Below are positions 2-52,367 of a DNA stretch of 64,000 nt, piece by piece; position 1 is the stretch's first letter; each line of letters starts with the position of its first letter. The notes below the pieces were generated by a model. The model was not told where the DNA came from. It did no database searches and saw nothing but the letters and a program-made list of their open reading frames with translations. The stretch is taken from assembly GCA_945888375.1 (NCBI GenBank), contig CAMCZZ010000002.1, positions 62,001 through 126,000 on the forward strand. The letters run 5' to 3'. Made by a program: the position numbers and the translations under genes. The DNA is from Akkermansia muciniphila (GTDB lineage: Bacteria > Verrucomicrobiota > Verrucomicrobiia > Opitutales > Opitutaceae).

Positions 2-250
2 ACCAAGGTCGAAACCGACGGCGGGGCCGTCGCCGGCAGAATAGGGCAAAGCTACGGCGGCGCCTTCACCCTCACCATTGGCGGGCACACGTTGAAAGGC
101 AGCGTGCGCCAACCGGGCATGAACGTCTCTCTTGACCTCGGGCGCATCGCCCTCGAGCCCGGCGACTACGATATAAAAATCCAAGCCGACGAAATCACTG
201 GTGCTGAACTCATGAGGCTCAAAAGCCTCAGCCTCTTTCCGCAGCAATGA
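2..250 (+). CDS. C-terminal end of an exported enzyme, probably a sulfatase with an accessory domain (partial)
   Basis: The last 82 codons of a gene that begins before the window are open in this frame and end at TGA 248-250. The translated tail has alternating short beta-strand-like stretches (IGGHTLKGSV, LEPGDYDIKIQA) and ends ELMRLKSLSLFPQQ. Tails of this kind close many verrucomicrobial and planctomycete sulfatases that carry a carbohydrate-binding-like module; that comparison is from memory of the family and is not proof. The stop overlaps the next start (ATGA), so the two genes are translationally coupled and the next gene is itself a sulfatase. No catalytic residues are visible in this fragment. 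Confidence 0.6.
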   Translation, partial: TKVETDGGAVAGRIGQSYGGAFTLTIGGHTLKGSVRQPGMNVSLDLGRIALEPGDYDIKIQADEITGAELMRLKSLSLFPQQ

Positions 251-4227: not shown

Positions 4228-5793
4228 TTAGTTGACGTTGAGTTCCAGGATCTGGCCGGCCGCTCGCAGGCGCTTTTGCAGTTCGGCGATTGGGACGAGA
4301 TGAACGGCGGTATCATCGTGGCTGGCCATGGCGGCGGCGATGCCCGCGGCCTGGCCGGCGATCATATATTGCGGCTCCATGCGAAAGGACGCGAAGGCGA
4401 TGGTGGAAGCGCTGGCGCAAACCGGCACGAGCAGGTTTTGGCACTCGCTGTAGCGGGGCAGCAAGGCGCGATAAGGGATGTCCCATGGCTCCACCGGGTG
4501 ACTGAGGTAGCCCTCCATGTAGACTTCTTCGGCGGCTTTCGGGAAATAGAAGGTCTTCAGGGAGACCCATTGCACTTCGCGGATGTCGATGTTGTAGCCG
4601 GCAAGGCCGATGCGGTCAAACTTGCGGGGATTGGTCATCAGATCGTGCTGGGTCAGCACGTATTCGCCTAGCATGCGGCGGGCTTCGCGGATGTAGAGCT
4701 GGTGAGGCCATCCGCCGGTGTCGGTGAACTCGTCTTTGCATAGCCCCCATGGCGCGTATTTAGCCCGAATACCGGTTGGCACGGACGGATCATTTTGCAG
4801 ATAGTAAACTAGGCCGTGGGCCCAATCGAGGTGTTGTTGCCAGATCTCTTTGCGGCGGGAGGGGGAGCCGTCCGGGTAGTCTTGGTTGGCGCCGAGTAGA
4901 TTGAGCGAGAATGGGTAGCCGGCGTTGATGTCGGTCTTGCCGTTGGGCATCGGTTTTATACCGAGTATGTTTTGGACTTTTTCCCCGCCGACCTCGAAGC
5001 AGCGGCGTATCAGCTCATAGTCCTCGCGATCGTAGCGTTCGGGGCGGGGGATGGGCAGGCGGTTTTCGGGGACGTCGGTGAGGCAGAGGCGGAAGCAGTA
5101 GCCTTGGATTTTACCGTCGCCTGCACCGGTGGGGGTAAGGTCCTCCTCGGCCGTGATGTGGGGTAGCAGGCGGCCGTCTTTCCATGGCGAGATGGCAAAA
5201 TTCACCTGATGATTGCTGCGCAGAATCTCGCGGCGGCCGGCGAGGGATTCTTGGTAAAGATCTCGGCTCTCTCGGCCTACGCGGTAGGAGACGCCGGCGG
5301 CTTTTAGCAGATCGCCCTCGTAAGTCGCATCGATGAAGACCTTGGCGGTATGAACGCGACCCTCGCTTGATTTGATGGCGCTGATGCGACCCTCGGTTTT
5401 GATGACAGCGTCGATGCCCTGGCCGTATTCGACGGTGACGTTTTGCTCCTTTAGCATCGCCTTTAAGATATTCTCGGCGACGTGTGGCTCAAAAATCCAC
5501 GCAATGTCCTGATCGTAATGACGACCAACGCGGCGAAAAAACTCCAGAGCTAGCCCACCGATGCAGTTCTCCTGGCGATCCATATCGGTGCGGCCAAGTC
5601 CGCCGGACAGCATGCCGCCGATGTGCCGGCCCGGCTCGAGCAGCAGCACCCGGGCACCCTGGCTTGCTGCTCCGATCGCGGCCATCGCGCCACCGGCCGT
5701 GCCGCCATAAACAATCACATCCGCCGGCGGGGACTCGGCTCGACTTACGGGAAGCAGGGCAACGCAGAGGCTAAGTAGCAGGGGGCGAAACAT
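4228..5793 (-). CDS. Exported FAD-dependent oxidoreductase
   Basis: The ATG at 5793 starts a signal peptide (MFRPLLLSLCVALLPVSRAES) and is preceded by CTCCCCACCCC; upstream in-frame codons give no sensible N-terminus. The 521-residue protein opens with a dinucleotide-binding fold, DVIVYGGTAGGAMAAIGAA, followed by VLLLEPGRHIGGML and, further on, KVFIDATYEGDLLKAAG. This is the FAD-dependent oxidoreductase family (PF12831 type) often found in polysaccharide-utilisation regions of Verrucomicrobiota and Planctomycetota. The C-terminus contains MIAGQAAGIAAAMA, as expected for the FAD-binding domain. The substrate is unknown. It heads a two-gene leftward operon with the tandem SGNH hydrolase. Confidence 0.9.
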   Translation of the reverse strand: MFRPLLLSLCVALLPVSRAESPPADVIVYGGTAGGAMAAIGAASQGARVLLLEPGRHIGGMLSGGLGRTDMDRQENCIGGLALEFFRRVGRHYDQDIAWIFEPHVAENILKAMLKEQNVTVEYGQGIDAVIKTEGRISAIKSSEGRVHTAKVFIDATYEGDLLKAAGVSYRVGRESRDLYQESLAGRREILRSNHQVNFAISPWKDGRLLPHITAEEDLTPTGAGDGKIQGYCFRLCLTDVPENRLPIPRPERYDREDYELIRRCFEVGGEKVQNILGIKPMPNGKTDINAGYPFSLNLLGANQDYPDGSPSRRKEIWQQHLDWAHGLVYYLQNDPSVPTGIRAKYAPWGLCKDEFTDTGGWPHQLYIREARRMLGEYVLTQHDLMTNPRKFDRIGLAGYNIDIREVQWVSLKTFYFPKAAEEVYMEGYLSHPVEPWDIPYRALLPRYSECQNLLVPVCASASTIAFASFRMEPQYMIAGQAAGIAAAMASHDDTAVHLVPIAELQKRLRAAGQILELNVN

Positions 5794-5945
5794 GGGGTGG
5801 GGAGCGGCTAAGGGGAAGAGGTAGAGGGAGAAAGAGGCATCGCGCACATGCTGGCGCGGGCTTCGCTTTAAATGGATTTCCAACCAAATGCGGGTCCTCG
5901 ATTTTACGGCAATTTCTCGGAACAACGTAAAGCCCAAACCCCGCT

Positions 5946-12800: not shown

Positions 12801-12914
12801 GGTGATGTCCGGGGCCGCTGCGCGGGCCGGCTCCGTCAGCCCGGGCCGGGCATGAATGGTTACGGCGGTCGCGATTTCAGCGAAATAATCGAGCTCGGCA
12901 GATACCTTTTTCAT
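9822..12914 (-). CDS. Cytoplasmic glycoside hydrolase family 2 protein
   Basis: A 1030-residue protein without a signal peptide. The order is GH2 sugar-binding jelly roll (about 90-260, with VLRFRGVDYKCEAYLNGVCV), immunoglobulin-like domain (about 270-400) and TIM barrel (from KFYLNGREIRLRGANTMGH). The candidate acid/base is Glu514 in SYINEPRP and the candidate nucleophile Glu605 in GCGEFGAEG. About 400 further residues follow, including IHLFIDAWPAGWMKTLMD and beta-sandwich-like segments. GH2 covers beta-galactosidases, glucuronidases, mannosidases and others, and the sugar cannot be told. Its start follows the MFS transporter stop by 15 bases, so imported oligosaccharides are the likely substrate. 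An AGG 8-10 bases before the ATG is a weak ribosome-binding site, unusual in this window. Confidence 0.9.
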   Translation of the reverse strand: MKKVSAELDYFAEIATAVTIHARPGLTEPARAAAPDITLPLTPGSAPEERPHAAKLGTAAELAEALALARERHAEFLRDYAPPLPRTRERFDLKTFSWRIERPEDRADFHALTGGAGDWETVTIPHYGPPLGKACTLYRVEFDLPGALFAKEVVVLRFRGVDYKCEAYLNGVCVGRHEGFFDEFEFNCTGVARQTGNVLLVRVENDYTMLGSHKEGAAINGDKIYAATGLGYDDPKQGWHHCPAGMGIYNTVHFEGRPRLAITDLWVRPLPAVAEAELRFEVENLGPTPNEDARFLVSVFGLNFPATLHRDHPHRPHASTERGFGDLDGDHASDIPGLMGPGVSFVSVRLPMPQMRIWDLDTPWLYQAQVKILTPDGTLLDAAACPFGMRSFIQDEHSTPKGKFYLNGREIRLRGANTMGHLERCIMLGNFDQLRDDILLAKLTHMNFLRLTQRPVHKEVYEWCDRLGLLLQTDMPMFASARRNQLIEITRQAARMERHVRAHPSNILVSYINEPRPAAASQPHRFMLRPELERMFLLCSEVVRQENPERVIKCVDGDYDPPSAQGMPDNHCYCGWYIGHGVDLGALHNGAWLPVKPGWHYGCGEFGAEGLDSYEVMQKYYPESWKPASPEAPWTPAVISESQSWNFHFLWYVTPVNAREWIEASQDHQTWIVRLMTEAYRRKADMNTFAIHLFIDAWPAGWMKTLMDVDRVPKKAWFAYRDALTPLAVNLRCDRLQAWSGEVLSVEMWVCNDYAFATAGARLVYEVGFEGKIIAHGEIAAQIAVCAPRGQGMIEINLPATTHRGRLTVAASLVSADGVALHENEIEVDVFPAIPAAGTCLCVPESSPETSLLLGKLGLNTQKPITGERPVILLATHEAYESRRSEIDAAVKNGATALFVKLAPGTYDIGGVSLMVRKAGMGPRHFVSGRTGHPLLAGLEPRDFKFWHFDALGHASPLLLSVLEGPAWTPIVQSGDGGWLRPWAYTPAVVEHRDGRGVWRVCQLELGATAGSTPTSAILARRLLGLDPAV

Positions 12915-12929
12915 GAAAAAACCTGATTT

Positions 12930-14351
12930 TTAAGCGTTTTGGTTTGGCGGGGTGTAGGCAGCTTCGCCGCCCAAGGCCCGCCACTGCCGGTAAAGTAGCA
13001 CACACATCACCAAGCTCATTCCGGCGCAGGCAGCGCACCAGACGAAGACGAGGCGGTAGTCACGAAACGTCTCGATCAACCAGCCGCATAGGACCGGTGC
13101 GAGCACCACGCCGCTGAAGCCGAAGATTTGGTTGGCGGTGAAGAACTGGCCGTATTTGGCCCGGGGTAATAGGCGGGGCAGAATCGCGAGGTAGGATCCC
13201 ATGTAAACAGCTTGTGAAGCTGCATTTACGATCAGCCAAAAATTGAGCGAAGCAACGTCCTGCACCATGAAGAAGCAGGCCAGAAAGGTAACCGCGCTCA
13301 AAAAGAGGCCCGTCATCGCGATACGCAGCGGATGATAGCGATCCACCAAGGGACCCACCAAAAAAAACACCGGCACTCCGACCAAGGAACACCAGCCCTT
13401 GATGTGCCCAAACTCCGTAAGACTAAGGCCTATTGTCGGAGCATATCCGGTGGCCGAACCTCCAGGCTGGGTGCCGAAAAAAACCAGAAAAGTCCCGAAA
13501 GGCACCAGTGCGCTCCAGAAAAATAACGACAGCGAATACGTCGTCCAGTAAATCTTGTGGCCGAAGCAGTCCCGGAAATAGCTTTTGAAAACCGCCAGTT
13601 TACCCTCGGTCGAACGGTCCGGAGGCGGGGGGTATTCACCTTCCTTAACCTTCCATACCAAAAGGAGAAACGACACCGCATAAAGCAGGGCGGCTAGGGT
13701 ATAAATCGCGGCGATATCCGATTTGGCGTAGCCGAAAAGGTAACGATGGAAAACAAAGGCCCCCAGCGCGCCTACCGCCCGGTAGCAACCCACGAATTTC
13801 CCCATCACCTTCGCCGGGATAACATCTACGAAGAGAAACTGATACACCTGCATTATGTAGGTGTTGGCCACGACGAAGACTACCATGCACGCCCCCATCC
13901 ATCCGATTTTCAGGGAGTTCACGCCCGCACCGGTGGGGAAGAGTCCTGAGAGGAGTGTGGCGATCGGGTCCGCAAACCCAAGTCCCAGCAAAGCCACTAC
14001 AACCAGCGGTGTGCTCCATAACAAAAAGGGCCGGCGGCGCCCCAAGGGCCCTCGATGGCGGTCGCTCTGCACCCCGATGAAAGGATTCAGCAAAATACCC
14101 AGCATGGCGGGCAAGCTCCCGGTTAAAAACCCGATCAACGCCGCCGAAGCCTCTGCCCAGCGCAACTGCAAGGGCACCAGTGACGTAGGCAGCTGTTCCA
14201 TGATCTGCAGGCAGAAGTCGCCCAGCAGCATCCAAAATAAAACCCCGTATAGTCCGCGCGCCGTGTAAGACAAAGTTCCTACTCGGTAAGACGCGTCCGC
14301 GACTTTAGTGGTCGGAATTGGGACATTCTTATGTTGTGGCATTAAAGACAT
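12930..14351 (-). CDS. MFS sugar transporter (SLC45/GPH-like)
   Basis: A 473-residue membrane protein with about 12 hydrophobic segments. The loop after the second segments reads IGVQSDRHRGPLGRRRPFLLW, the MFS A-motif form seen in sucrose/maltose SLC45-like and glycoside-pentoside-hexuronide carriers. A second copy-like loop, FLVGPLVDRYHPLRIAMTG, sits in the C-terminal half. The N-terminus YRVGTLSYTARGL closely resembles that of the truncated transporter at the right edge of the window (WKVGTLTYTAGSL). It is the first gene of a leftward operon with the GH2 enzyme and is divergent from the LacI-type regulator. The start is preceded by TTCTCCCG; a second ATG three codons in is possible. The exact sugar is unknown. 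Confidence 0.9.
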   Translation of the reverse strand: MSLMPQHKNVPIPTTKVADASYRVGTLSYTARGLYGVLFWMLLGDFCLQIMEQLPTSLVPLQLRWAEASAALIGFLTGSLPAMLGILLNPFIGVQSDRHRGPLGRRRPFLLWSTPLVVVALLGLGFADPIATLLSGLFPTGAGVNSLKIGWMGACMVVFVVANTYIMQVYQFLFVDVIPAKVMGKFVGCYRAVGALGAFVFHRYLFGYAKSDIAAIYTLAALLYAVSFLLLVWKVKEGEYPPPPDRSTEGKLAVFKSYFRDCFGHKIYWTTYSLSLFFWSALVPFGTFLVFFGTQPGGSATGYAPTIGLSLTEFGHIKGWCSLVGVPVFFLVGPLVDRYHPLRIAMTGLFLSAVTFLACFFMVQDVASLNFWLIVNAASQAVYMGSYLAILPRLLPRAKYGQFFTANQIFGFSGVVLAPVLCGWLIETFRDYRLVFVWCAACAGMSLVMCVLLYRQWRALGGEAAYTPPNQNA

Positions 14352-14659: not shown

Positions 14660-15700
14660 ATGACTTTAACCACGGCTGAACTATCTGCGAAACTTGGTCT
14701 TTCGCGAGCAACCATTTCCCGGGTTTTGAATGGCGGGCAAGGGGTGAAGCCTGCGACAATTGCAGCAGTGCGGCAGGAGATGGATCGCTTGGGTTACGTG
14801 CGGCCGGCGGTGCGGCCTGGGCGCAAGCCTAGGGATCAGCGACCTGAGCCTTCGCGGCATGGGGCCATCGCGTTGATCGTGGCGGATACCAGCATCTTTT
14901 TTGATGACCCCGGCATGGCGAATTTCGTGCACTCGGTCCAGGAGGCTTGCAGCAAACGCGGACTTCATCTACTTCTTGAGCGGGTCAGTAATCACGGCCC
15001 CCTGCCTTCGACGTTACAGCGGGCCAAGGTGGATGGCGCCTTGGTGATGATGTTTCCCGGGCTCATGCCCGAGGATGATACGATCCGCCGCATTTCGGAG
15101 CAGTTTCCCGTGGTTCAGGTGTTGGCGCCCGGGCATCCTTTGACCAATGTCGAGCACGTGACGGTGAATGATGTCTCCATCGGCACCCACGCCCATTTGC
15201 TTTTGACCGCCGATAGCTGCCCATCGGTGGTGGTGGTTAATGTCTGGCCTTCCTTCAAAGAGAGCCTGTTGATCCGCAGCCGGGCTTGCCTGGATCGTTC
15301 TATTTTGGCCGGACGTTCGGTGCGGGTTTTTGTGCAGGATAAGAATCAGGTCGCTTTGTGGCCCGCCGGGACTGTTCCCTACCAAAGCTTTCAGGAAATC
15401 ATCGAGATACTGCGGGACTTGCCCAAGCCGATTGGTGTCTTTCTCCCGATCGACGCCCGGGCGCGGGAGTTTGCCGATGCTCTGAAGGCCGCCGGTTTAG
15501 AGGCTCCTTCTCTCGTGCGTTTGGTTATCGCCGGCGTCACCCCCCGTCTGGTGGAGGGCATCCAGCCGAGGCCCACATTGATCGATCCTAATTTCGAGGC
15601 TGTTGCCAATGCCGCTATCGACCGTTTGCTGGCCGTTAGCGGCGAAGCTGCCCTTCATCCTCAAACCGTGATGGTGCAGCCTCGGGTTGTCGCTGGTTGA
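14660..15700 (+). CDS. LacI-family transcriptional regulator
   Basis: A 346-residue protein. The N-terminus carries the LacI helix-turn-helix (TTAELSAKLGLSRATISRVL, about 4-23) and the hinge-helix region through LGYVRPAV. A periplasmic-binding-like effector domain follows, including GAIALIVADTS and a C-terminal PTLIDPNFEAVANAAIDRLL. It is divergent from the MFS transporter and cytoplasmic GH2 genes and most likely represses them until a sugar inducer binds. It is the only clear transcription factor in the window. The spacing between start and operator allows autoregulation. Confidence 0.93.
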   Translation: MTLTTAELSAKLGLSRATISRVLNGGQGVKPATIAAVRQEMDRLGYVRPAVRPGRKPRDQRPEPSRHGAIALIVADTSIFFDDPGMANFVHSVQEACSKRGLHLLLERVSNHGPLPSTLQRAKVDGALVMMFPGLMPEDDTIRRISEQFPVVQVLAPGHPLTNVEHVTVNDVSIGTHAHLLLTADSCPSVVVVNVWPSFKESLLIRSRACLDRSILAGRSVRVFVQDKNQVALWPAGTVPYQSFQEIIEILRDLPKPIGVFLPIDARAREFADALKAAGLEAPSLVRLVIAGVTPRLVEGIQPRPTLIDPNFEAVANAAIDRLLAVSGEAALHPQTVMVQPRVVAG

Positions 15701-16087: not shown

Positions 16088-18160
16088 ATGAAGTTCTCAG
16101 CCTTGCTCCGTTGGTTTTTTAGTTTTTTTGTGACTGCCGGGTTTTACCTCCCCGTCCCTTTGTCCGGGCAGGCTGCAGGCATCTACACTGCGCCCCCCTT
16201 TGCTACTTCCAATCTGCCGGCCAAAGCCGTCTTGCGGGTAAAATTACCCGGGGGGCCGGTCGCTTTGGCTCAGGCGGCCATTGATCGCGCGCGGCTAGCT
16301 AGTCCGGAGGCATTTTTAGTGCTGGAGGTGGCGGCTGACGTGGAAATACACACCGAGGCCCTGCGCCTAGGCTCTCGCATGAGTCTCCTGCTCTCGCCTC
16401 GTGCCGGACTCCGGGCGATGGCGGGTTGCACGGCCCAAGCCTTGCTGCAGGTTTCTGACTCTGAATTAGTGACCGTAGCCTCGGCAGGCCCCGGTCCTGC
16501 GCGGCTGGATGGTGCGGGGGCGGCGGTGGTGGGCATCGTGATCGAGCGCGGACGCCGCATTTGCCTGGACGAACTCGTGGTGGAGGGCTGCGGACGGGCG
16601 GGCATTGATTTTCAAGGCGTAAACGCCGAGGCGGTGAACGAGGCCGGTAGTGTAACGCGCTGCGTTTTTCTGGCCAATAGCGACGGACTGCGGGTCGATC
16701 GCAGCGGGGGCTTCATGTGTCTGGATAATACGTTTCGCGGGCAGACTGGCACCGCGCTCACCATCACTTCGATCAACAGCGTTGTGGCCGGGAATACCTT
16801 CGTGCAAAATCAGGCTGCCATCCGCAGCGGTTCGGATCGCGGCGTGATCACGCGCAATGAGATTCTCGACCGCGCCGCGCTCGCATTCACCGCCAACAGT
16901 GCGGGCAATTTGGTTTCGGAAAACCGGGGCAACACCGCAGGCCTGGTCGTCGCGCTGGCTGGCAGCACCCAGCAGCTTTTTCGCAACAGCTGGACGGGCT
17001 CCGTGCAGATCGCCCCGGGTAGCGCCGATATGGTGCTGGTGGGCAACTCCGGTTTAACTGTGGCCGGCGAAGCCCGGGGCGCGCGGGTTTTCAACCCCCC
17101 CACCTTTAAGCAGCCGCATACGTCTCCCGTCATCGTGCCCGGCCTGGGGCGTTTCGACTTCACCGTGCCCGGCGGCAAGGCCGCCACGAAGCAGGAGAAA
17201 CCCGTTCCCGTCGATCTCGCCACCGTTCAAACCGCGCTCGACGCCGCCCGCGCCGAGCACCCCGGCACCGTTCTGGTCTTAAAACTCACCGGCGAATACG
17301 TCTCCCGCACACCAGAGGGTCTGAAGCTGCCGCCGGATACTTGTGTCATTCTCGAGGGCCGGATCCTGGCCGATCTCGGCTTGCCGGTGGAGCCGATCTG
17401 GGTCCGTGGCGAAGCCACCAGTCAGCTCATCACCTTGCCTGCCACCGGCTATGCTTCCGTCTCCGGCGGTCGCTTGGACGGTGCCCGCCAGGCGTCCTAT
17501 CCGCTGAACGCCAAAACCGGCAGCCTAGCGCTGATCGAAGGCGTGCAACTCGCCTCGGGCGCTCGCGACGGACTATATACCAAGGGGCGCAATCCCGCCG
17601 ATCCACTCTTCGTTTACCAGTGCCTGGCCTACGCGAATGGCAGTCGTGGCATCTGGGCCCACGTGGCCACCCGCGTGCACTCGATTGGCAATACCTGCGT
17701 GGGCAACAAAATGGATGGTATCGACCTTGATGCCCATTCAATCGACGGGACGGCCCTTTTCAACATCAGCAATGGCAACCTTCGGCACGGAGTGTTTGTC
17801 GAAGAAGCGATCACTCATAATATCGTTTTTGGTAATCAACTTATGGGCAATGGCGGGGCGGGCGTCCATGTCTGGAACGAGGAAGTAAAGGGGAACACCG
17901 GCTCCAACATCATCACGGCCAATATCTGCACCGCAAACCGCCGCGGCGTGAGTGTGGGTGGACGCGCCCCCGATATCACAGCCCACGGAAACCTCTTTTT
18001 TAACAACGTCTGCCGCGATAACTGGCTGAACGGTGTGCTCGGCGGCAATACTCACGCTCGCGGGAACTATTTTGCCCAGGCCGACATCGGGGGCAATCAC
18101 GGGGCCGATATCGTTGGAGCCGAACCGGCGGTGTTACTCTCCACCCCCGCGCTCCCGTAA
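16088..18160 (+). CDS. Exported protein with two right-handed beta-helix domains, function unknown
   Basis: I choose the ATG at 16088 because it starts a signal peptide (MKFSALLRWFFSFFVTAGFY and on to QAAG); the upstream ATG at 16055 only adds 11 polar residues. The 690-residue protein has two halves joined near residue 360. Each begins with an amphipathic helix (VALAQAAIDRARLASPEAFLV; VQTALDAARAEHPGTVLVL) followed by short parallel beta-helix rungs rich in N, G and V. The second half carries the motif NKMDGIDLDAHSIDGTALFN, then GNLRHGVFVEEA. The same motif, at nearly the same residue position, is in the 23613-26432 protein. Beta-helix folds are common in polysaccharide lyases and GH28-type hydrolases; no known family motif is evident. 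Confidence 0.8.
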   Translation: MKFSALLRWFFSFFVTAGFYLPVPLSGQAAGIYTAPPFATSNLPAKAVLRVKLPGGPVALAQAAIDRARLASPEAFLVLEVAADVEIHTEALRLGSRMSLLLSPRAGLRAMAGCTAQALLQVSDSELVTVASAGPGPARLDGAGAAVVGIVIERGRRICLDELVVEGCGRAGIDFQGVNAEAVNEAGSVTRCVFLANSDGLRVDRSGGFMCLDNTFRGQTGTALTITSINSVVAGNTFVQNQAAIRSGSDRGVITRNEILDRAALAFTANSAGNLVSENRGNTAGLVVALAGSTQQLFRNSWTGSVQIAPGSADMVLVGNSGLTVAGEARGARVFNPPTFKQPHTSPVIVPGLGRFDFTVPGGKAATKQEKPVPVDLATVQTALDAARAEHPGTVLVLKLTGEYVSRTPEGLKLPPDTCVILEGRILADLGLPVEPIWVRGEATSQLITLPATGYASVSGGRLDGARQASYPLNAKTGSLALIEGVQLASGARDGLYTKGRNPADPLFVYQCLAYANGSRGIWAHVATRVHSIGNTCVGNKMDGIDLDAHSIDGTALFNISNGNLRHGVFVEEAITHNIVFGNQLMGNGGAGVHVWNEEVKGNTGSNIITANICTANRRGVSVGGRAPDITAHGNLFFNNVCRDNWLNGVLGGNTHARGNYFAQADIGGNHGADIVGAEPAVLLSTPALP

Positions 18161-18479: not shown

Positions 18480-20312
18480 ATGAAATCCTGCCCTGTTTCC
18501 GTGTCCTATTTCGGTGCGCGTTCGCGTGCATCTTCCGCTGTGCTCGCCGCTGCGTTTGCCGCCATCAGCCTTCAGGCCCAGACAAACGTTTCCTCTTTGC
18601 CCAGCAACACTTTGTCGCTTTCTGGCACAGCTAATTCTACGAACTATAATCTAGACGCTAACCTGACCGTTAGCACTACTGCGGACACGACTGCATCCGG
18701 TGTATTTTCTGGATCGGTGGGGACGTTCACCAAAACTGGCACTTTCAATCTGATCCTCTCAAATACCAGCAATTCATTCACTGGAGCAGTGAAAGTGTCG
18801 GCTGGTGGCATTTACGCTCCTTCGATCGGAAATACCGGTGCGAATAGTCCACTGGGACAGAGCTCCACTATTTCACTGGGTAACTCAAGCACTGCCGGCA
18901 CGCTACGTCTGACCGGAACCTCCAGCGAAACGACCAACAAGATCATCAATTTATCCGGCACCTCCGGAGGTGGCACGGTAACGGTCACCGGGGCCACCTA
19001 TACTTTCGACAGCAATCTGGGTGTTAGCGGCACCGGCAACAAGACGCTTACTTTCGCCACCAGCGGAGGCCTTACCGGCCAAGGAATCACTTTTAATGGA
19101 TTGATCGCCGATACCGCCGGGTCGGTCATCTCTGTCCGTGGCAACGGTAGCGGCAACGGCACCTTTCGCTTGGGAAATGCGAGCAATTCCTTCTCGGGAG
19201 GCGTGACCCTCGATGGGAACACTAACGGGCGCACCTACTTCCTCGAAGTCTCCAGTGTTGGCAACAGCGGCGCCAACAGCCCGTTGGGCACTAATGGCAC
19301 CATCAAATTGGGCAGCTCGGTTTCTGGTTCGAATAACGTGCTCAACTACGTCGGCGTCGGCGAGACCACTAATAAAGTTATTAATCTGGCCGGCACAGTT
19401 GGCAAGGCCAGCATCTATCAATCCGGCACGGGCCAACTGAAGCTCACCAGTAATCTTTCCGTCACTGGCGCCGGTGTGAAGGAGTTCAATTTAAACGGTA
19501 GCACCGCCGGCACCGGCGAGTTTGCTGGTGTGATCTCCGATAACACGGTGAGCAACACCACGTCCCTGGGTAAAGGAGGCTCCGGCACCTGGACCCTTTC
19601 GGCGGACAACATCTATACTGGCGGCACCACGGTGAGTGCCGGTCGCCTCTTGGTAAATAATGCCACGGGCAGCGGCACCGGCACCGGTGCGGTCAGCGTA
19701 GGTGCGTCCGCAATTTTAGGCGGTTCGGGCACCATCTTCGGCGGCACCACTCTTGCCAATGGAGTTTCTGCGGGTGCTTATTTGGCCCCCGGCGCCACCG
19801 CTACCGCTGCAGCCACCAGCGGTGGTATCAGCGTTCTGAGCTTCGCCAGCAACCTCACCCTAACAAGCGGTGCGGGCGCGAACAGCTTCGGCAGCACCGT
19901 TTCGTTCGAGATTAACGGCACCACTCGTGGCACGGGCTACGATGCCATTAATCTCACCGGCTCTGGCAAGACCCTAGCCTACGGCGGCACGATGAGCCTC
20001 GTCTTCGACGCACCCATCAACGCCAGCACCTACAATCTCTTCTCTCTCGGCGGCAACATCCAGAGTTCTACTTTCGCGGCGGTTACCATCGCTGGCTCCG
20101 CCATTGGCGGGACACCTTCGGCCACCATTACGGCTTCGGGCTGGAGTGCGAGCGTCACGGATAGCCTGAACTCGCTCTGGAATTTCACCTTTACCAACGC
20201 CGACGGTAACTTGCAGGTCACCTCCGCCATCCCCGAGCCCTCCACCTTCGCGGTGGGCCTCGGCGCGGTTGCTCTCGCTGGCGTGGCTCTGCGCCGTCGC
20301 CGCCGGGCTTAA
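18480..20312 (+). CDS. PEP-CTERM-sorted autotransporter-associated beta-strand repeat protein
   Basis: A 610-residue exported protein with a signal peptide (about 1-35). Repeats follow, such as GTFTKTGTFNLILSNTSNSF, GNASNSFSGGVTLDGNTNGR and GSGTWTLSADNIYTGGTTVS, the autotransporter-associated beta-strand pattern (TIGR02601 type). The C-terminus is a textbook PEP-CTERM signal: IPEPSTFAVGLGAVALAGVA followed by LRRRRRA. That signal is recognised by exosortase, linked to extracellular polysaccharide and envelope sorting; no exosortase gene is in this window. The start is preceded by ACCCCC. Part of the gene resembles the repeat region of the 6312-9713 protein. A structural or matrix role is inferred. 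Confidence 0.9.
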   Translation: MKSCPVSVSYFGARSRASSAVLAAAFAAISLQAQTNVSSLPSNTLSLSGTANSTNYNLDANLTVSTTADTTASGVFSGSVGTFTKTGTFNLILSNTSNSFTGAVKVSAGGIYAPSIGNTGANSPLGQSSTISLGNSSTAGTLRLTGTSSETTNKIINLSGTSGGGTVTVTGATYTFDSNLGVSGTGNKTLTFATSGGLTGQGITFNGLIADTAGSVISVRGNGSGNGTFRLGNASNSFSGGVTLDGNTNGRTYFLEVSSVGNSGANSPLGTNGTIKLGSSVSGSNNVLNYVGVGETTNKVINLAGTVGKASIYQSGTGQLKLTSNLSVTGAGVKEFNLNGSTAGTGEFAGVISDNTVSNTTSLGKGGSGTWTLSADNIYTGGTTVSAGRLLVNNATGSGTGTGAVSVGASAILGGSGTIFGGTTLANGVSAGAYLAPGATATAAATSGGISVLSFASNLTLTSGAGANSFGSTVSFEINGTTRGTGYDAINLTGSGKTLAYGGTMSLVFDAPINASTYNLFSLGGNIQSSTFAAVTIAGSAIGGTPSATITASGWSASVTDSLNSLWNFTFTNADGNLQVTSAIPEPSTFAVGLGAVALAGVALRRRRRA

Positions 20313-20404: not shown

Positions 20405-21109
20405 ATGAATTTTAAAAAAAATGCTCATGTCGGAATCGGTCCTGGCACCTCGCGCCAAGCCTTCACCTTGATCGAATTACTGACCGTGATTGCCATTATT
20501 GGTATTCTGGCGGCGATCATTATCCCGACGGTTGGCAAGGTTCGTGACTCGGCCAAGAAGGCTCAGTGTGTATCCAACCTGAAGCAGATCGGCATGACGA
20601 TCGGCCTTTATCTTAACGAGAACAAGAACATCATGCCGTTTTCAGCGGATGACACGTCCACCGGCTGGGATCAATACAAAGCCCCTTTACCCTTGCTGAC
20701 GCGCACCACCGCCAATCTGGATCGCAAGGCATACGATAATCCCGCAACGAATCACATTTTTAATTGCCCATCCGATAAAAATTTTTTCCGCACCTACGTG
20801 GCCAACGCCCAATTCATGATACAACGTATCTCCAATCCAGGCAAAACCATGCCTTATACAAAGATACCCAGTCCATCGACCAAGATCATCGTCACCGACA
20901 GCGAGCCCCCCTCCGTTGTGCCGGCAGATCCTACCTTGGCCAATGGTGACCCCGGTCCTTTCGCGGTAAATAACAACGCGAGTGACTACCTCACCAAAAT
21001 CGGTTCCCGCCACGGTGGCAAAGCCAATGCCCTTTATGCCGATTTCCATGTCGGTTCGGTCGACCGGTTGAAGTTGGTTTATGACCTCTCAATCTCCAAT
21101 AAATTTTGA
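20405..21109 (+). CDS. Stand-alone type IV pilin-like / type II secretion pseudopilin protein
   Basis: A 234-residue protein whose N-terminus has the prepilin peptidase motif RQA-FTLIELLTVIAIIG, with predicted cleavage after Ala19 and Glu at mature position 5, then a hydrophobic helix ending IIIPTVGKVRD. The C-terminus has SRHGGKANALYADFHVGSVD, the H-x9-DG-like signature of the large verrucomicrobial/planctomycete pseudopilin family. Ala rather than Gly at the cleavage site is usual for this group. No pilus assembly genes are nearby. It follows the PEP-CTERM gene by 92 bases and may be cotranscribed with it. Its role, possibly in secretion or surface display, is not known. Confidence 0.9.
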   Translation: MNFKKNAHVGIGPGTSRQAFTLIELLTVIAIIGILAAIIIPTVGKVRDSAKKAQCVSNLKQIGMTIGLYLNENKNIMPFSADDTSTGWDQYKAPLPLLTRTTANLDRKAYDNPATNHIFNCPSDKNFFRTYVANAQFMIQRISNPGKTMPYTKIPSPSTKIIVTDSEPPSVVPADPTLANGDPGPFAVNNNASDYLTKIGSRHGGKANALYADFHVGSVDRLKLVYDLSISNKF

Positions 21110-21203: not shown

Positions 21204-23612
21204 ATGAATCGAATTCGAGTTCTGGCCGTGGTTCTTTATGCGACCTTGGTCCCTTGCTGCGCAAAGGCTCTCCCGGCGGTAATCTGGGCCTCGGACCCGG
21301 TGCGTGCTGGAGAGACCGTCCTCGTTCGTGGGGATGATTTCGGTGAAAACTCGCGGGTGCAGATTTGTTTAACCCATAAAGGCATCGCCGGCGAGTGGCA
21401 GGCTGCTCCTGTGCTGCAACAGACCGCCAACACTCTGAAGTTCAGCCTCCCGGCAGACATCGGGGATGGCATCGTTTCCTTTACTATCGCCCACGGGAGC
21501 GAAAGCTCCAAACCTTCGCTCTTAAATGCCCCCAAAGTATGGTGGCTACAAGGTGACGAGACCGAAACCGCTACCCCCGGCGGTTGGGTGCGCCTTTTCG
21601 GACTCAATCTGGAACTAAGGCCCGGTGCAGAAATCCTTCTGCGCAAGGAGAAGCAAACGACCCGAATCGAGCCGGAGGCGATCGACGAATTTTGCCTGAG
21701 TGGCAAACTCCCGGAAAAACTGGCCGAGGGGGTCTACGAAGTCGTGTTCGCCAACGGTCTCGCTCATGAGGCCGCGCGGGTAACCGCCGGCAGCCTGCGA
21801 GTCCAGGCAAAGACACCGGTCCCGGCCAAAGTGTATAATGTCCTGGATTACGGCGCACAACCGGCTGAGCCGGGGTATCTCCAATACACCACGGCGCTGT
21901 TTGCTGAGGGCCAGGTTGACAGTGCCGATGCCTTTCAAAAAGCCCTTGATTCGGCAGGCGCGGCCGGTGGCGGAGTGGTTACCCTGCCGCGTGGCATATT
22001 TATATTATCCCGCGGGCTTACCATTCCGCTCAACGTTACCCTGCGCGGAGCCGGGGCAGACCTGACGGTGCTATCCTATGTGGATGACTTTATACCCCGT
22101 GATAAACGCCTGAAGAAACTGTATTGGGGCGCCCAGCAGTATGAACCCATCCAGGCGCCGGACACGCCGCCGCACCCTTATTTACTACGCGGCGAAGGGC
22201 ATTTCACCGTGGAAGATCTGGCGATCTACGCGATCAATCATCACGCGGGCATCCAGTCCGAATTGCCGCAAAATTCGCCCAATGCCGGCCATGTGGCCAT
22301 CCGCCGGGTCATCATGCGTCTGGATCGTTTTATCAATAACGACAAAACCGACCGTCACTATGCCAACGCCGAGGAGGTGTTTATGGCCCGTTGGAAAGAT
22401 AAGCGTCGCACCGGAGCGATTGATGTCGGTGGTCCGAACATACAAATCACTGATTGTGATATTTATTCCTCCCTGCAGGTTTTGATGCTCAATGGTTCCT
22501 CTGGTTACATCGCGCGGAATACGTTCTCCGCGGTGCCGCGGCACTGGACGGTGTTTGGCCGGCGAACGGAAAAAATAATTTTTGAGGAAAACGAGTGCAG
22601 CGATGGCGGTGTGAGTCTGAATAGTGTGCACGACATGGTCACCAACGATGGCCGGACGCGCATTCCAAGCATCTACTCCCGTGAGATCTACATCGCCCGA
22701 AACAAGATGAAAGATAGCTACCGCGGTGATCGCGATGGTGGCTTCAACTCGGATTTCCATGCGCCCGTGGGAATTTATACAGGGAAAATCCGACGCTGCG
22801 AGGGCTTGAGTATCGAATTGCCTCAGGAGACGCAGGATCCCGCCTTTGCCACGAAGTGGAAGGGCGCGGTCGTGGTCGTCATGGATGGCAAGGGGGCGGG
22901 TCAGTATCGTTCCCTTACCGGTGGTTCGGACAAGACTTTACAAATTGATCGTCCGTGGGAGGTGCCGCTCGACCAGACCTCCTTCATCACGGTTTGCAAA
23001 GCGCTGGATCACGTCATCGCGGTGGATAACGAAACTCGCGATGCCGGCAATACCGTGCTTTTCTGGTGCGGCGGGATCGAGGTGGTGGCCGCCCGCAACA
23101 AATCTTTTCGGGGGGGGGCGATCCAACAGATTACTATCTCTTACGAGGGTCAATTTCTCCCTGGGTTAAGGGCGCAATTTTTTGATAATGAAATCATCCA
23201 GGGTATCACTTGGGGCGCCTCCTTTATTTTCCCGCGTGGATCCAATATTGGAACAATTACTTATCCCCCAGTGTATCATGATCGCACTTTACAAGCGGAC
23301 AAGGGTTTGCCGGTGACCGCGCCGGATTATCACGGGCCGATGTCCCTAGATCAGATTTTCCGGCGCAACCATATCGCAAACAACGGACGGTTTATGGTGG
23401 GTGGCAACGTCCAAAATGTGCTCTTTGAGCGAGGCCGGGTGGAGAATGCCGATGTAGGGGTGGAAGTGAGCAGCCGGGGAGGCCGCTGGGCGGACTTCCT
23501 GGATGGCGGCCCGACAGATATATTAATCAGTCAAAATCACTTCCAGAATGTGAGCAAGCCTTACGGCGGCGACCGTCTCCAAGAGGCGGTCATAGTGCCC
23601 GCATCGGAGTAG
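21204..23612 (+). CDS. Exported pectate-lyase-superfamily beta-helix protein with an N-terminal IPT-like domain
   Basis: An 802-residue protein with a signal peptide (about 1-22). Residues about 25-200 look like IPT/TIG-type beta sandwiches (RAGETVLVRGDDFGENSRVQ; TPGGWVRLFGLNLELRPGAE). The beta-helix begins at VYNVLDYGAQPAE with SADAFQKALDSAGAAGGGVV and TLPRGIFILSRGL, the Pectate_lyase_3 opening. Many rungs follow to the C-terminus. The family includes GH28-like, GH55-like and lyase members, so the reaction is uncertain. A run of nine G (23110-23118) lies inside the reading frame. The stop codon at 23610-23612 directly abuts the stop codon of the convergent gene. Confidence 0.83.
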   Translation: MNRIRVLAVVLYATLVPCCAKALPAVIWASDPVRAGETVLVRGDDFGENSRVQICLTHKGIAGEWQAAPVLQQTANTLKFSLPADIGDGIVSFTIAHGSESSKPSLLNAPKVWWLQGDETETATPGGWVRLFGLNLELRPGAEILLRKEKQTTRIEPEAIDEFCLSGKLPEKLAEGVYEVVFANGLAHEAARVTAGSLRVQAKTPVPAKVYNVLDYGAQPAEPGYLQYTTALFAEGQVDSADAFQKALDSAGAAGGGVVTLPRGIFILSRGLTIPLNVTLRGAGADLTVLSYVDDFIPRDKRLKKLYWGAQQYEPIQAPDTPPHPYLLRGEGHFTVEDLAIYAINHHAGIQSELPQNSPNAGHVAIRRVIMRLDRFINNDKTDRHYANAEEVFMARWKDKRRTGAIDVGGPNIQITDCDIYSSLQVLMLNGSSGYIARNTFSAVPRHWTVFGRRTEKIIFEENECSDGGVSLNSVHDMVTNDGRTRIPSIYSREIYIARNKMKDSYRGDRDGGFNSDFHAPVGIYTGKIRRCEGLSIELPQETQDPAFATKWKGAVVVVMDGKGAGQYRSLTGGSDKTLQIDRPWEVPLDQTSFITVCKALDHVIAVDNETRDAGNTVLFWCGGIEVVAARNKSFRGGAIQQITISYEGQFLPGLRAQFFDNEIIQGITWGASFIFPRGSNIGTITYPPVYHDRTLQADKGLPVTAPDYHGPMSLDQIFRRNHIANNGRFMVGGNVQNVLFERGRVENADVGVEVSSRGGRWADFLDGGPTDILISQNHFQNVSKPYGGDRLQEAVIVPASE

Positions 23613-26432
23613 TTAATGTTGAGCCATCACTCGCAGGAACCGCTTCGGGTTAATTTGATCCGCTAAAGTGTAACTGTCGGCGATTCTCACTGTGCGCACC
23701 ATACCGGTGCCTATTTCTGTCACGGTAGCGCCGGCTGCAACGGCGGTAAATGCATTGCCTGCAATTGATTGCGCCAACAAAGACCAAGGCCCAGCGATAT
23801 CATCCGCACCTTGGACAATCACGTTAATATCGGTCTTGGTGGTATCGCGGCTAAATGTAATAGTTAGCTTTTGTTCGCTCATGCCAACGGTGTAGAGTGG
23901 AGATGTGGTCGCCTGAACCGGATTTTCGCCCAGGGCGTATTCCACGAGGTTGGGCAAGCCGTCGCCATCGGGGTCGGCGGTATCGGTGGCGGAGACTAGA
24001 CCATTTAAGAAGTAGCCAAAATAGAGTTGCTTCCAGTTGGTCAAAGGCGCGTCAGGGGTGACGTTCACGGTAAACGAGGTAGTGGCGGAGAGCAGACCGT
24101 CGCTAGCGGAAACGGTGATGGTAGCGGAGCCGTTTTGATTTTGCGCGGGAACAAGGGTGAGCACTGGGTTTTCCGCGGCCACGCTAAGCACTCGTTTATC
24201 ATTTGGGAAAAGCACGTTGGAACTCGAGGTGGAGCTCATCAGGAGTGCGGCGGGTTCCGTTTCCATATCATCCACGATGATGTTCAACGCCAGCCCTGTG
24301 CTATCTTCGGATAAGTTTTGAGTAGGTATCACGGAGAGGATCGGCGCAGTATTGGCGGCACCGCTAGGCGAATTAAAGAAAACGGCTGAATTGGTTGCTG
24401 CAATTGGGATGGTATTACTCGCAAGGTGATTCTTTGAAAAATAGTTTTCTTTGCCGACGTTTTGTGAATCGATGGCGCCGTTTGGAGAGGTAGTAAGGAT
24501 AGCGTTATTAAAGGCGAAATTGTGTTCGGTGTCATAGCCGGCCCGCGCCCCCATGCGAATGCCCCTCTGGTTGTCGTATGCCTTGTTGGCGACGAGCGTG
24601 TTGTAGGCGGTGGGGCCGGCAGCGTAGGAATAGATGTTAAACGCTATATCATTATTTACACAGGTGTTGGCGATCAGCTGGGTGTTCTGTGCGCTTTCTT
24701 CCACGAAGATTCCGGTTCTTATATTTCCAGTCAGGACGTTGAACTTCGCCAGCCCAGCCTTGCTAAAAGCATCGAAATCGATGCCGTCCATGTTTACATT
24801 GGACACGGTGTTGTTAGTGAAGATGAACCGTGCGCTGGCATCTTTGGACCAGATGCCGCGGGCGGCACCGCCATCTAGATTGCAATAGCCAACGATACAG
24901 GGATTTCCACCCTTGGAGAAAGCGATGATATCGGAATCATTCACCCGAGTGGCTTTGTTGCCAAAGTTCCGCAGATTCACGCGATCGACGAGGACTCGGG
25001 CGCAGTTAAGGAACGCGAACCCGTTGCGTCCGGTGGTATTTTTGCCATCGATGGTTCCGCCTGATACGGAGATATTGTAATTGATAGTCAGGGCGTCGCC
25101 CGTGCTGATGGCGGCGACTCCCGGTTCGAGGTTGATGGTGCCGTCGATGACTATGCAGGTGTTGGTCAGGGGCACCAGAGGCGCGTCGCCGGTGATCAGG
25201 GGGGCGGTCAGGCGCAATACAATCACGGCATCGGGTGAGGCAAGGCGGGCTGCATCATAAAGCCCCTGAATCTCAGAAGTTTTGGTCGCGGCGGTGCTCA
25301 AGTCCAGACGGGCTTTGCCGGTCACAATGGTGGAACTATGGAAATTGCCCGCGGTTGGGGGGTAGAAGTAGCCCTGACTTCCGGCGTTGAGCGGCTTTTG
25401 GGTGGTTATCACGACGTGACTATTACTGGCGCCAGGTGCCGCCAGCGGGGTAGTGACGTTGGCGTCAAACGTGTTGTCGTATAGTAGGTTCCCGATGCCG
25501 AGCAATTGTATGCCGGTGGTGGACGCGGTGAAATTGTTGGAGGCGATGATATTGCGCTGGCTACCAGTGGTGGCGGAGACGGAGGCGTTAGTGGCGATCG
25601 CGGTGGGGTGGTCAGTGAATTGATTGTTCACGATTGAGGACCAACTGGTATCGGGAATGGAGAGACCGTTAAGACTATTGTTGGTGAGCGTATTGTTTGC
25701 AATTGTGGCTCTGGAGCTGTTGCTCATGACGATGCCTTCAAGATTATCATGGCTTTTATTATCCATGCACACCGCTTGTGTCGTGTTAAGAATCCGGACT
25801 CCCGCCGCGTTGGCTGCTCCGCCGGTATCGCAGCGGGTGATGGTGCACTCATTATCGAAGACATCCGGCCCGAGTCCTTGCAGTCGTATGCCATCCAACC
25901 CGGTGGCCCGGGTGCGGACTTTATCAATATTCACGCGGGCAACGCCATTGGCCTCAATGCCGTAGGCGTTGGCGCTGTTGCCTTCTATTCTTAAGTAACT
26001 AATTGATATATAGGATGATCCATCGCTAATTTTAAGAAGGCTGCTTGCGGTGATCCCGGGGGAGGCGGCGACCAAGGTCGCGCCGTTGCCGTTCAGGCAC
26101 ATATTGGTGCCGAGGACCAGAGGGGTGGTGGTGACGATGTAGCGTCCGTTGGCTTTCAGGTTAACGACGATGACTTTTGCGGGATTTTGGGTCCGCAGGG
26201 TGTTCAGTTGGGTCTGCACACCGACGATGGTTTCTGTCGTATCGTTCAGCGTGACGACGCTTTCGCCGGTAACTTGTTTATAGAACGTGGTGGTGGGCAC
26301 GGTGAACAGCGTGCCCACCGGTCCGGTTTGCGCGGTCGCGTTTGGCATGCAAGAGCAGGTGAGCAGCCAGAGGCCGAGCCAGCTTAATAGGAGCGGGGTA
26401 TGGGGCCGGGCCCGGGGATTCTTGAGGTGCAT
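23613..26432 (-). CDS. Exported double beta-helix protein with cadherin-like and verrucomicrobial C-terminal domains
   Basis: The ATG at 26432 follows the upstream stop by one base (TGACATG) and starts a signal peptide ending near NATAQ; the longer frame would need a TTG start inside the upstream gene. The 939-residue protein has a first beta-helix (about 60-330) and a second (about 380-680) with the motif NMDGIDFDAFSKAGLAKFN then GNIRTGIFVEES. This is the same layout as the 16088-18160 protein. A cadherin-like segment (about 700-790, ATITVSASDGLLSATTSFTV) follows. The C-terminal domain contains ADPDGDGLPNLVEYALGENP and ends KRFLRVMAQH. It is the last gene of a leftward operon behind a GH2 enzyme and a PhoD-like phosphatase. 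A glycan-cleaving role is inferred. Confidence 0.82.
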   Translation of the reverse strand: MHLKNPRARPHTPLLLSWLGLWLLTCSCMPNATAQTGPVGTLFTVPTTTFYKQVTGESVVTLNDTTETIVGVQTQLNTLRTQNPAKVIVVNLKANGRYIVTTTPLVLGTNMCLNGNGATLVAASPGITASSLLKISDGSSYISISYLRIEGNSANAYGIEANGVARVNIDKVRTRATGLDGIRLQGLGPDVFDNECTITRCDTGGAANAAGVRILNTTQAVCMDNKSHDNLEGIVMSNSSRATIANNTLTNNSLNGLSIPDTSWSSIVNNQFTDHPTAIATNASVSATTGSQRNIIASNNFTASTTGIQLLGIGNLLYDNTFDANVTTPLAAPGASNSHVVITTQKPLNAGSQGYFYPPTAGNFHSSTIVTGKARLDLSTAATKTSEIQGLYDAARLASPDAVIVLRLTAPLITGDAPLVPLTNTCIVIDGTINLEPGVAAISTGDALTINYNISVSGGTIDGKNTTGRNGFAFLNCARVLVDRVNLRNFGNKATRVNDSDIIAFSKGGNPCIVGYCNLDGGAARGIWSKDASARFIFTNNTVSNVNMDGIDFDAFSKAGLAKFNVLTGNIRTGIFVEESAQNTQLIANTCVNNDIAFNIYSYAAGPTAYNTLVANKAYDNQRGIRMGARAGYDTEHNFAFNNAILTTSPNGAIDSQNVGKENYFSKNHLASNTIPIAATNSAVFFNSPSGAANTAPILSVIPTQNLSEDSTGLALNIIVDDMETEPAALLMSSTSSSNVLFPNDKRVLSVAAENPVLTLVPAQNQNGSATITVSASDGLLSATTSFTVNVTPDAPLTNWKQLYFGYFLNGLVSATDTADPDGDGLPNLVEYALGENPVQATTSPLYTVGMSEQKLTITFSRDTTKTDINVIVQGADDIAGPWSLLAQSIAGNAFTAVAAGATVTEIGTGMVRTVRIADSYTLADQINPKRFLRVMAQH

Positions 26433-26433
26433 G

Positions 26434-33605: not shown

Positions 33606-33638
33606 GAAAAAAGCCGCGCCCGGCTAAGGGCGCGGCTT
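33606..33638 (-). terminator. Intrinsic terminator of the gnd gene
   Basis: AAGCCGCGCCC (33611-33621) and GGGCGCGGCTT (33628-33638) form an 11-pair stem with a 6-base loop. Read leftward it is followed by a run of six T, placing it 50 bases after the gnd stop. Confidence 0.92.
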
Positions 33639-33690
33639 GGGAAGGCGCGTGGCGAGACGACTATGTCGGCCCCGCCACGGGTCTTCGGGT

Positions 33691-35199
<1,509 letters not shown>

Positions 35200-35398
35200 G
35201 GTTGGTGGAAGGAAGGACAAGCGCTAGGCGGGCGGGCGGCCCGGGCCAACCTCAAACTCCCGCAAACGTGCGCAGGACCGACCGCCAGCGGGCCCACCGG
35301 GCGGCTCTGTGCTATATTGCCAGGCGTAAAGCTCCAACTGTAAGCCTGCCGGGAACTGGCCTGCCCTGACCCGCCCGCAATACTCCAAATCAGCCCCT

Positions 35399-39523: not shown

Positions 39524-39583
39524 GCCGGCGCGCCCCCCCTTTTGCCTTTCGCGTCACCGCCGGGCGGCTTAGGTTTTCATTCC

Positions 39584-40675: not shown

Positions 40676-40719
40676 ACCCGGGCTGGATTTTTTGCACCGC
40701 TCCGCCCAAACCTCGCCCC

Positions 40720-52348: not shown

Positions 52349-52367
52349 ACTCGCGCTACTATTTCCC

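Follow-up and report, generated by a model that had tools for sequence, protein, structure and literature searches.

Two related double beta-helix proteins with a conserved acid cluster in a polysaccharide island of Verrucomicrobiota

Two homologous double beta-helix proteins

When a 64,000-nucleotide stretch of an Akkermansia muciniphila assembly (GCA_945888375.1, contig CAMCZZ010000002.1, positions 62,001 to 126,000; hereafter the window) was analyzed, two genes encoding related double beta-helix proteins, here protein 1 and protein 2, were studied further (Table 1). From its TTG start, the open reading frame (ORF) of protein 2 occupies 23613-26450 on the minus strand (945 aa), and the first ATG is found at 26432. 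An earlier note on this DNA, made from the sequence alone, had regarded the two proteins as related, and BLASTP bore this out with 28 % identity over 658 columns and an E-value of 3e-43. An alignment of this length and significance reflects homology and not chance, and the two proteins are, by sequence, homologous across both helices. Both are probably secreted, judging by eye from their signal-peptide-like starts.

No specific Pfam or NCBIfam family was found for either protein. Above the cut-offs there were solely generic right-handed-helix and repeat models, namely NosD (2e-16) and Beta_helix (1.5e-13) in protein 1 and Beta_helix (3.3e-17) and NosD (9e-16) in protein 2. A single-sequence search of the PDB with protein 1 returned nothing better than one match to the LecB lectin (E 0.17), and the same search with protein 2 returned no match. 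Protein 2 differs by a C-terminal extension, the DPDGDGLPNLVEYALG-containing tail of which has relatives in many Verrucomicrobiota genomes.

The AlphaFold model of protein 1, built from 18 sequences (mean predicted local distance difference test score, pLDDT, 89.7; predicted template modelling score, pTM, 0.91), consists of two tandem right-handed beta-helices. In model numbering, which is the protein number minus 29, a helix at 29-42 precedes a first beta-helix that runs to about 307, and a helix at 348-361 precedes a second that runs to about 639. For protein 2, the same layout was obtained from 13 sequences with less confidence (pLDDT 76.0). The earlier note had described two beta-helix halves, each preceded by a helix, and the models of both proteins show them. 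The ASPxAxxVL sequence that it gave for the end of these helices is literal in one cap per protein (ASPEAFLVL in the protein at 16088, ASPDAVIVL in that at 23613), and the remaining two caps have looser versions of it.

When the two halves of the protein 1 family were compared by hhalign, they were aligned from cap to cap over 245 columns (probability 99.4, E 9e-22, 20 % identity). The second-half profile also matched first halves, namely that of the protein of genome G001 (E 1.6e-20), whose second half had been used to build the profile, and that of the protein of genome G292 (E 1.8e-8), which is not in the profile. By these profile comparisons, the two halves are duplicates of one module.

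Conserved residues of the second helix

A total of 26 members were aligned, including two from the window, 16 from a peptide-pattern scan and eight from whole genomes (see below for both). Rows L019 and L020, with contigs identical to L003 and L005, were dropped. L023, which has an in-frame TGA, was replaced by L065, its second half only, and therefore first-half counts rest on 25 sequences. L007 is truncated at a contig end. L065/L023 (G157) is a distant double beta-helix member with the TGA within the match; its second half is an open frame in which the signature is kept.

In the second half, eight residues (R520, W523, D543, D546, D548, R566, F570 and E572) are invariant in 26/26 members. 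E573 is present in 25 and replaced once by Gln. H525 of protein 1 is present in 21, and the remaining five, which represent the protein-2 type, have Lys (3) or Gln (2). The motif reported in the earlier note near residue 545 was located as DGIDLD at 543-548 of protein 1 and as DGIDFD at 549-554 of protein 2 (from the ATG), and the GN-R-G-FVEE-like stretch said to follow it was found in both (NLRHGVFVEE and NIRTGIFVEE). The linker residues R355 and D357 and six Asn (N535, N559, N583, N607, N612 and N640) are also invariant in the second-half alignment, and the Asn probably form a structural ladder. Besides the cluster, two acids are invariant, D161 of the first helix and the linker residue D357.

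Based on DSSP strand positions, RGIW, DGIDLD and RHGVFVEE open three successive rungs of one sheet. When the rungs were aligned by their glycines, W523, D546 and F570 fell in one outward column and H525, D548 and E572 in another; rung and column placement is a register argument from model secondary structure and not a measured distance. Five conserved acids in one rung cluster had been claimed before. Their conservation held, and their position was revised in that they occupy two adjacent rungs, D543, D546 and D548 on one and E572 and E573 on the next. Five of the seven acidic positions conserved in at least 96 % of the members lie within 31 residues, and when seven positions were drawn at random from the 54 acidic positions, only 20 of 100,000 draws were as tight.

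In the first half, the conservation analysis of the aligned members revealed no set comparable to this acid cluster. The only invariant residues of the D/E/H/K/R/W/Y/N/Q kind in the first helix are Q62, R69, D161, N236, N241 and N257.

Distribution and pairing of the family

When the genome_contigs collection (84,980 species) was scanned with six short peptide patterns, 47 stretches were obtained, and relatives of protein 1 are encoded in 16 of them. Verrucomicrobiota taxa are named in the titles of 15 of the 16, the title of L004 being 'bacterium' only. Members may occur outside this phylum as well, as the pattern scan detects close relatives only. With searches beyond the phylum limited, the family has so far been seen, at the sequence level, only in Verrucomicrobiota.

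Among whole genomes of the phylum, protein 1 matched 8 of 288 at E ≤ 0.001, one match (G243) being short with an E-value of 6e-4. The second-half profile matched 12 of 387 at E ≤ 1e-5; four of these (G177, G101, G265 and G229) showed partial profile coverage and were read as other kinds of protein. Matches of protein 2 were found in 102 of 288 genomes, mostly to its C-terminal extension. Plasmid searches with a piece of AlgE4 and with protein 1 gave no match. In literature searches on tandem beta-helix enzymes, epimerases in this phylum, PF12831 and new beta-helix families, no description of the family was seen among the matches listed.

The genome of the window has exactly two family copies by the protein 1 search. 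Three genomes of its genus (G000, G085 and G140) encode both types, and in a fourth (G289) neither type was found by profile search. They are also together in L004, L006 and G292, the latter belonging to another family of the class. The two genes stand about 5.5 kb apart in both G292 and the window. Between them, G292 has a pseudopilin-like and a PATR-repeat gene, and the window has genes of these two kinds and a pectate-lyase-like gene in addition. In a FastTree tree of the second halves, the 5 sequences of the protein-2 type were separated from the remaining 21. We put no weight on this split because the rooted monophyly check was False and support values were not considered.

Nearest fold and comparison with alginate epimerases

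When 523 PDB chains were re-ranked by structure with VIA-align, the top rows for the second half of protein 1 were AlgE-type modules (8jaz, Z 23.1; 2pyg, 22.4; 2pyh, 22.3; 5lw3, 22.2), with a root-mean-square deviation (rmsd) of 2.1-2.3 over 299-302 residues and 19-22 % identity, and the next rows had Z ≤ 20.4. The first half of protein 1 was seldom placed, and then on Kp32gp38 (Z 17.5) and inulin fructotransferases (Z about 17) and not on AlgE. For protein 2, 8ja4 headed the list, matched by the first half with Z 26.1 and rmsd 2.1 over 282 residues; the second half of this protein is less well modelled and barely covered by that list. The fold closest to the predicted models is that of AlgE-type mannuronan C-5-epimerase modules, and the AlgE-type trait of a right-handed beta-helix A-module with an N-terminal cap is present in them.

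The second-half profile was also searched against 177,635 PDB sequences. At E ≤ 0.2 there were five matches, all C-5 epimerases: four AlgG entries (E 0.0013-0.0018), which by their titles are mutants of one protein, and AlgE4 (0.11). Two more epimerase sequences followed at E 1.8, and the remaining three of the matches at E ≤ 10 are not beta-helix enzymes by name. When compared with AlgE by hhalign, the profile gave a probability of 63 and a score of 41.3, against a maximum of 22.6 in 100 column shuffles and 12.4 for the reversed alignment; when AlgE4 was the only AlgE sequence used, the best local alignment was confined to the cap region. Control proteins L066-L069 scored 46.4-58.6, above AlgE, and these scores are biased upward because the controls were chosen by the family profile itself. 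Beta-helix controls not chosen in this way scored 13.9-20.7.

AlgG periplasmic epimerases carry a DPHD motif. A DPH motif was found in neither protein 1 nor protein 2, although the strongest sequence match in the PDB is to AlgG.

The register of the AlgE active site rests on a three-sequence alignment and on the AlgE4 alignment from the profile search, and the VIA-align ranges alone are also compatible with a fewer-gap offset that puts the AlgE catalytic rung on D494-K499. In the hhalign register, R520 corresponds to AlgE Y149, W523 to D152, H525 to H154, D543 to D173, D548 to D178, R566 to R195 and H567 to H196. A shift by one rung, with D546, D548 and E572 as AlgE D152, H154 and D178, is favoured by alignment by eye, and a comparable one was printed for one AlgG domain. 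It was rejected, since the best hhalign alignment had a probability of 63 and the next alternative 2.7.

In the available text of PMC8824271, Y149 is given as the acid and H154 as the base of AlgE, D152 and D178 as further catalytic residues, and D119, D173 and R195 as a supporting network. The Tyr/Asp/His/Asp tetrad is not conserved as a set in the family, where the equivalents in this register are R (26/26), W (26/26), H (21/26) and D (26/26). Part of the AlgE network persists, other residues stand in place of its acid and of one Asp, and the base is His in just 21/26; the epimerase signature fails. Going by these sequences, elimination chemistry with another base may still operate.

The GH136 link

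One match of the second-half profile, L069 (genome G229; E 9e-7 for one genome), led to GH136, as this protein matches the lacto-N-biosidase 7v6m at 4.6e-16 over the whole protein and at 2.9e-5 in the motif stretch. Most of the L069 family have GIW (or a near form) followed by DGxGFDxD, aligned with RGIW and DGIDLD. In a bridge alignment of GH136-like proteins, 14 of 18 rows, two of which repeat the same genes, have Asp, four residues and Asp-x-Asp after GIW or a near form.

In the hhalign alignment the two GIW coincide, and D546-x-D548 falls on a D-x-D of which the second Asp serves as the nucleophile in GH136. D575 is described as the nucleophile and D568 as the acid/base in the available part of PMC7335108; we equate them with two Asp seven apart in the 6kqs chain, the numbering of which appears to be offset by two. 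For hhalign, rows L094_0 and L089_0 were dropped, and two remaining rows (L088/L095 overlap) repeat the same genes. The probability was 29.3 (score 36.4; maximum of 60 column shuffles 23.0) without the selected bridge sequence and 89.6 with it. The bridge relatives are not wholly independent of the selection of L069 because they were found with it. On these alignments, we consider the link as a lead favouring D548 as the nucleophile, and no more.

The GH136-like beta-helix proteins themselves (L069 and L084-L095, GIW...DGxGFDxD...QYN) are scattered in Verrucomicrobiota, and relatives of L069 at E ≤ 1e-10 were found in 11 of 145 genomes, some matches being partial.

Genomic context

Judging from the Pfam names of its genes, the window is a polysaccharide island (Table 1). 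The ORF at 247-2622 may be a sulfatase-GH43 fusion, both parts lying in one ORF. Three long ORFs (33637-35343, 39542-40675 and 40518-41219) had no Pfam match at E ≤ 0.001.

Table 1 Features of the two proteins and of the window (residue numbers refer to protein 1 unless stated)
Feature	Position	Strand	Basis and remarks
Protein 1 (P0001), double beta-helix	16088..18160	+	ORF from ATG to stop, 690 aa; AlphaFold model
Capping helix of first beta-helix (residues 58-71)	16259..16300	+	Model helix 29-42
First beta-helix, about residues 76-336	16313..17095	+	Homologous to second, without its acid cluster; model, profile comparison, conservation
Capping helix of second beta-helix (residues 377-390)	17216..17257	+	Model helix 348-361
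Second beta-helix, about residues 394-668	17267..18091	+	Putative catalytic module, AlgE-like fold; model, structure re-ranking
R520-G-I-W523-A-H525	17645..17662	+	R520, W523 in 26/26; H525 in 21/26
D543-G-I-D546-L-D548	17714..17731	+	All three Asp in 26/26
N564-L-R566-H-G-V-F570-V-E572-E573	17777..17806	+	R566, F570, E572 in 26/26; E573 in 25/26
Protein 2 (P0002), double beta-helix and C-terminal extension	23613..26432	-	939 aa from first ATG; predicted model
C-terminal extension of protein 2	23616..24353	-	Weak Ig/cadherin-like stretch below Pfam cut-offs and DPDGDGLPNLVEYALG-containing tail
NIRTGIFVEE of protein 2	24696..24725	-	Sequence
DGIDFD of protein 2	24771..24788	-	Sequence
RGIWSK of protein 2 (Lys replaces H525)	24843..24860	-	Alignment
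Sulfatase and GH43-like stretch	247-2622		PF00884 at 36-372, PF04616 at 503-627
FAD-dependent oxidoreductase (PF12831)	4228..5937	-	Pfam
GH2 protein	9822-12914		Pfam
MFS transporter	12930-14351		Pfam
LacI-type regulator	14660-15700		Pfam
PATR-repeat PEP-CTERM protein	18480..20312	+	Pfam; no BLAST match to G292 PATR-repeat protein
Pseudopilin-like protein	20405..21109	+	Pfam; G292 relative 32-35 % to L003, L004, L006 counterparts
Pectate-lyase-like beta-helix protein	21204..23612	+	PF12708 just under cut-off
GH2 protein	27912-30812		Pfam
GH43 protein	30943-31947		Pfam
PL4-like protein	35399-39523		Pfam
CBM96 protein	41700-44657		Pfam
PL6-like protein	44654-47878		PF14592 match
Four sulfatase genes in a row	50966-56819		Pfam
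GH2 protein, after the four sulfatases	56827-59268		Pfam

Neighbours of the protein 1 relatives were counted over the 16 loci, with Pfam run on one representative of each kind; the counts are lower bounds because several loci are short contigs. Relatives of the FAD oxidoreductase of the window lie downstream in 6/16 loci, and a sodium/solute symporter adjoins in 2/16. In 6/16 (L005 7106-7873, with counterparts in L006, L012, L014, L017 and L018), a divergently oriented gene encodes a protein of about 250 aa (173 in L018) that has no Pfam family above cut-off and, by eye, a signal-peptide-like start. Part of a GH2-like gene, 45 % identical to that at 9822-12914 of the window, was found about 7 kb off in L009 and L011.

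Proposed function and rival explanations

The family members are likely to be enzymes at all, and the acid cluster of the second helix is their probable active site. We tentatively favour a carboxylate-based glycoside hydrolase acting on an anionic glycan with its active site in the second helix; hydrolysis rather than elimination, taken by itself, is a close call that we put slightly below even. This reading is supported by the eight invariant residues, which occupy three consecutive rungs of the second helix, by the few invariant residues of the first helix, by the homology of the two halves, by the structural match of the second half to AlgE-type modules, by the sulfatases, GH2, GH43, PL4, PL6 and CBM96 proteins in the window, and by the transitive GH136 chain that puts D548 on the GH136 nucleophile.

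If so, tandem duplication of one AlgE-like beta-helix module would have given rise to secreted carbohydrate-active enzymes in which the first helix lost, or never had, catalytic residues and may serve as a scaffold or substrate-holding platform. In the second helix, a glycan, probably anionic (uronate or sulfated), would be bound in a groove over the PB1 sheet, with R520 and R566 holding its charge and W523 and F570 stacking on sugar rings. The invariant carboxylates D543, D546 and D548 together with E572 could then cut the glycosidic bond. D548 would be the best candidate for the nucleophile, and E572 or D543 for the acid/base. These residue roles and the substrate are inferred.

Several points weigh against a hydrolase. 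The best-matching fold, AlgE, is that of an epimerase/lyase, and calcium-dependent beta-helix lyases also show an acid cluster and an invariant Arg. The placement of the acids comes from the strand register and not from coordinates. In the case of GH136, direct comparison with three PDB fragments stayed at the null level (score 19.4, probability 1.0), and at the ungapped equivalent of its acid/base, seven before the nucleophile, there is K541 and no acid; the nearest acid is D543, two residues off and five before D548. In L009, moreover, UvrB and two proteins to which Pfam assigns no family are the three closest neighbours. The active site 'of hydrolase type' of the earlier note is thus retained as far as the conserved acid cluster of the second helix is concerned, and its type is plausible rather than shown because the nearest fold is of the lyase/epimerase type.

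The proteins could instead be polysaccharide lyases or C-5 epimerases, in which the acids bind Ca2+ or neutralise the uronate carboxylate and R520, R566 or H525 takes the C-5 proton in the manner of AlgE and further beta-helix lyases. This is possible, if on the doubtful side. It agrees with the AlgE-type epimerase/lyase fold as the nearest one to the protein 1 second half and to the protein 2 first half, with the five PDB matches at E ≤ 0.2 being C-5 epimerases throughout, with H525 (on the base H154), D543, D548 and R566 falling on AlgE positions by hhalign, and with the PL4-like, PL6-like and pectate-lyase-like proteins in the window. However, all 26 members have Arg at the AlgE acid Y149 and Trp at D152, the base is His in 21/26 and Lys or Gln elsewhere, the DPH motif is absent from both proteins, and in the hhalign register no acid of AlgE4 corresponds to the extra carboxylates D546 and E572.

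An assignment to an existing CAZy family as a divergent member (GH136-like, GH141, GH55 or other beta-helix) overlaps with both the hydrolase and the lyase readings and is improbable. The motif link to GH136-like proteins points that way, as do the structural matches of the protein 1 model to GH141 BT_1002 (Z 17.5) and several GH28 structures (18-20), GH141 being described in part of PMC12786026 as a beta-helix hydrolase with two essential Asp. The whole protein 1 chain was also matched by Foldseek to the two-domain PL6 structure 8bwk (E 5e-7, top) and to GH55 5m5z (E 1.2e-5), with TM-scores (template modelling) of only 0.19-0.25. Against it, no PDB member of the GH136, GH141 or GH55-type families was reached by the family profiles at E ≤ 1 or E ≤ 10, and the GH136 acid/base position is not kept. 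Least probable in our view is a non-catalytic glycan-binding or surface-structure protein with the cluster as a ligand or metal site. The PATR-repeat and pseudopilin-like neighbours in the window and G292, the extra C-terminal stretches of protein 2 and the NosD model (a copper-binding protein family) above cut-off on both proteins would suit such a role. On the other hand, an invariant Arg/Trp/acid set confined to three rungs would exceed the usual needs of binding, and NosD function was rejected as the specific model TIGR04247, the cut-off of which is 300 bits, scored only 20.3 and 31.1.

Many beta-helix proteins of polysaccharide islands carry only a fold-level name. The sharp invariant signature, the confident model and the co-encoded divergent pair make this family directly amenable to activity screening. 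Should it prove to combine hydrolysis with an AlgE-like scaffold, it would reveal how one fold can pass between lyase/epimerase and hydrolase chemistry. The fullest form of this idea, a new Verrucomicrobiota family of carbohydrate-active enzymes in which Tyr/His elimination chemistry of a duplicated epimerase-like module was rebuilt into a carboxylate-based glycosidase, with the divergent pair acting on one sulfated/uronic polysaccharide, is speculative and rather unlikely.

Comparison with known beta-helix enzymes

NosD and generic right-handed beta-helix proteins (PF05048, PF13229) resemble both proteins at the fold level only, as seen from the Pfam matches. PL6 alginate lyase and chondroitinase B (8bwk, 7dmk) share the top whole-chain Foldseek match. 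PL6 membership of proteins 1 and 2 was rejected since PF14592 had no match at E ≤ 0.1, whereas the window's 44654-47878 does match. Comparison of the second-half profile with the PL6-like and pectate-lyase-like proteins of the window by hhalign gave no signal.

GH55 beta-1,3-glucanases have two tandem beta-helices in one chain, the layout that is also present in the protein 1 model, and the double beta-helix architecture is therefore not new. In the accessible text of PMC10637969, SacteLam55A is a two-domain enzyme with its general acid in the C-domain. Its constellation of W446, D449, E480, H481 and E502 (the last taken from the title of 4pex) was not recognised by eye in the family, and no GH55 chain was found at E ≤ 1 in single-sequence or profile searches of the PDB.

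GH136 lacto-N-biosidases (LnbX, ErLnb136) and the GH136-like Verrucomicrobiota proteins share with the family a GIW rung, an Asp-rich stretch ending in DxD, and (Y/F)N. The putative acid/base Asp of the family is not at the GH136 position, and GH136 requires a partner domain of another fold, as stated in the available part of PMC7335108.

The closest likeness is to the AlgE-type enzymes (AlgE4 2pyg/2pyh, AlgE6 5lw3, 8ja4/8jaz), a single module of which is matched from cap to cap (model 327-661 on 8jaz chain 1-369). D543, D548 and R566 lie on AlgE D173, D178 and R195, and H525 of the protein-1 type lies on H154. In contrast to AlgE, the family has tandem modules in one chain, R520 for Y149, W523 for D152 and the extra carboxylates D546, E572 and E573, and the protein-2 type is without H525. 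Taken together, we consider the two proteins as a variant of known beta-helix carbohydrate enzymes that forms a small, sharply conserved family.

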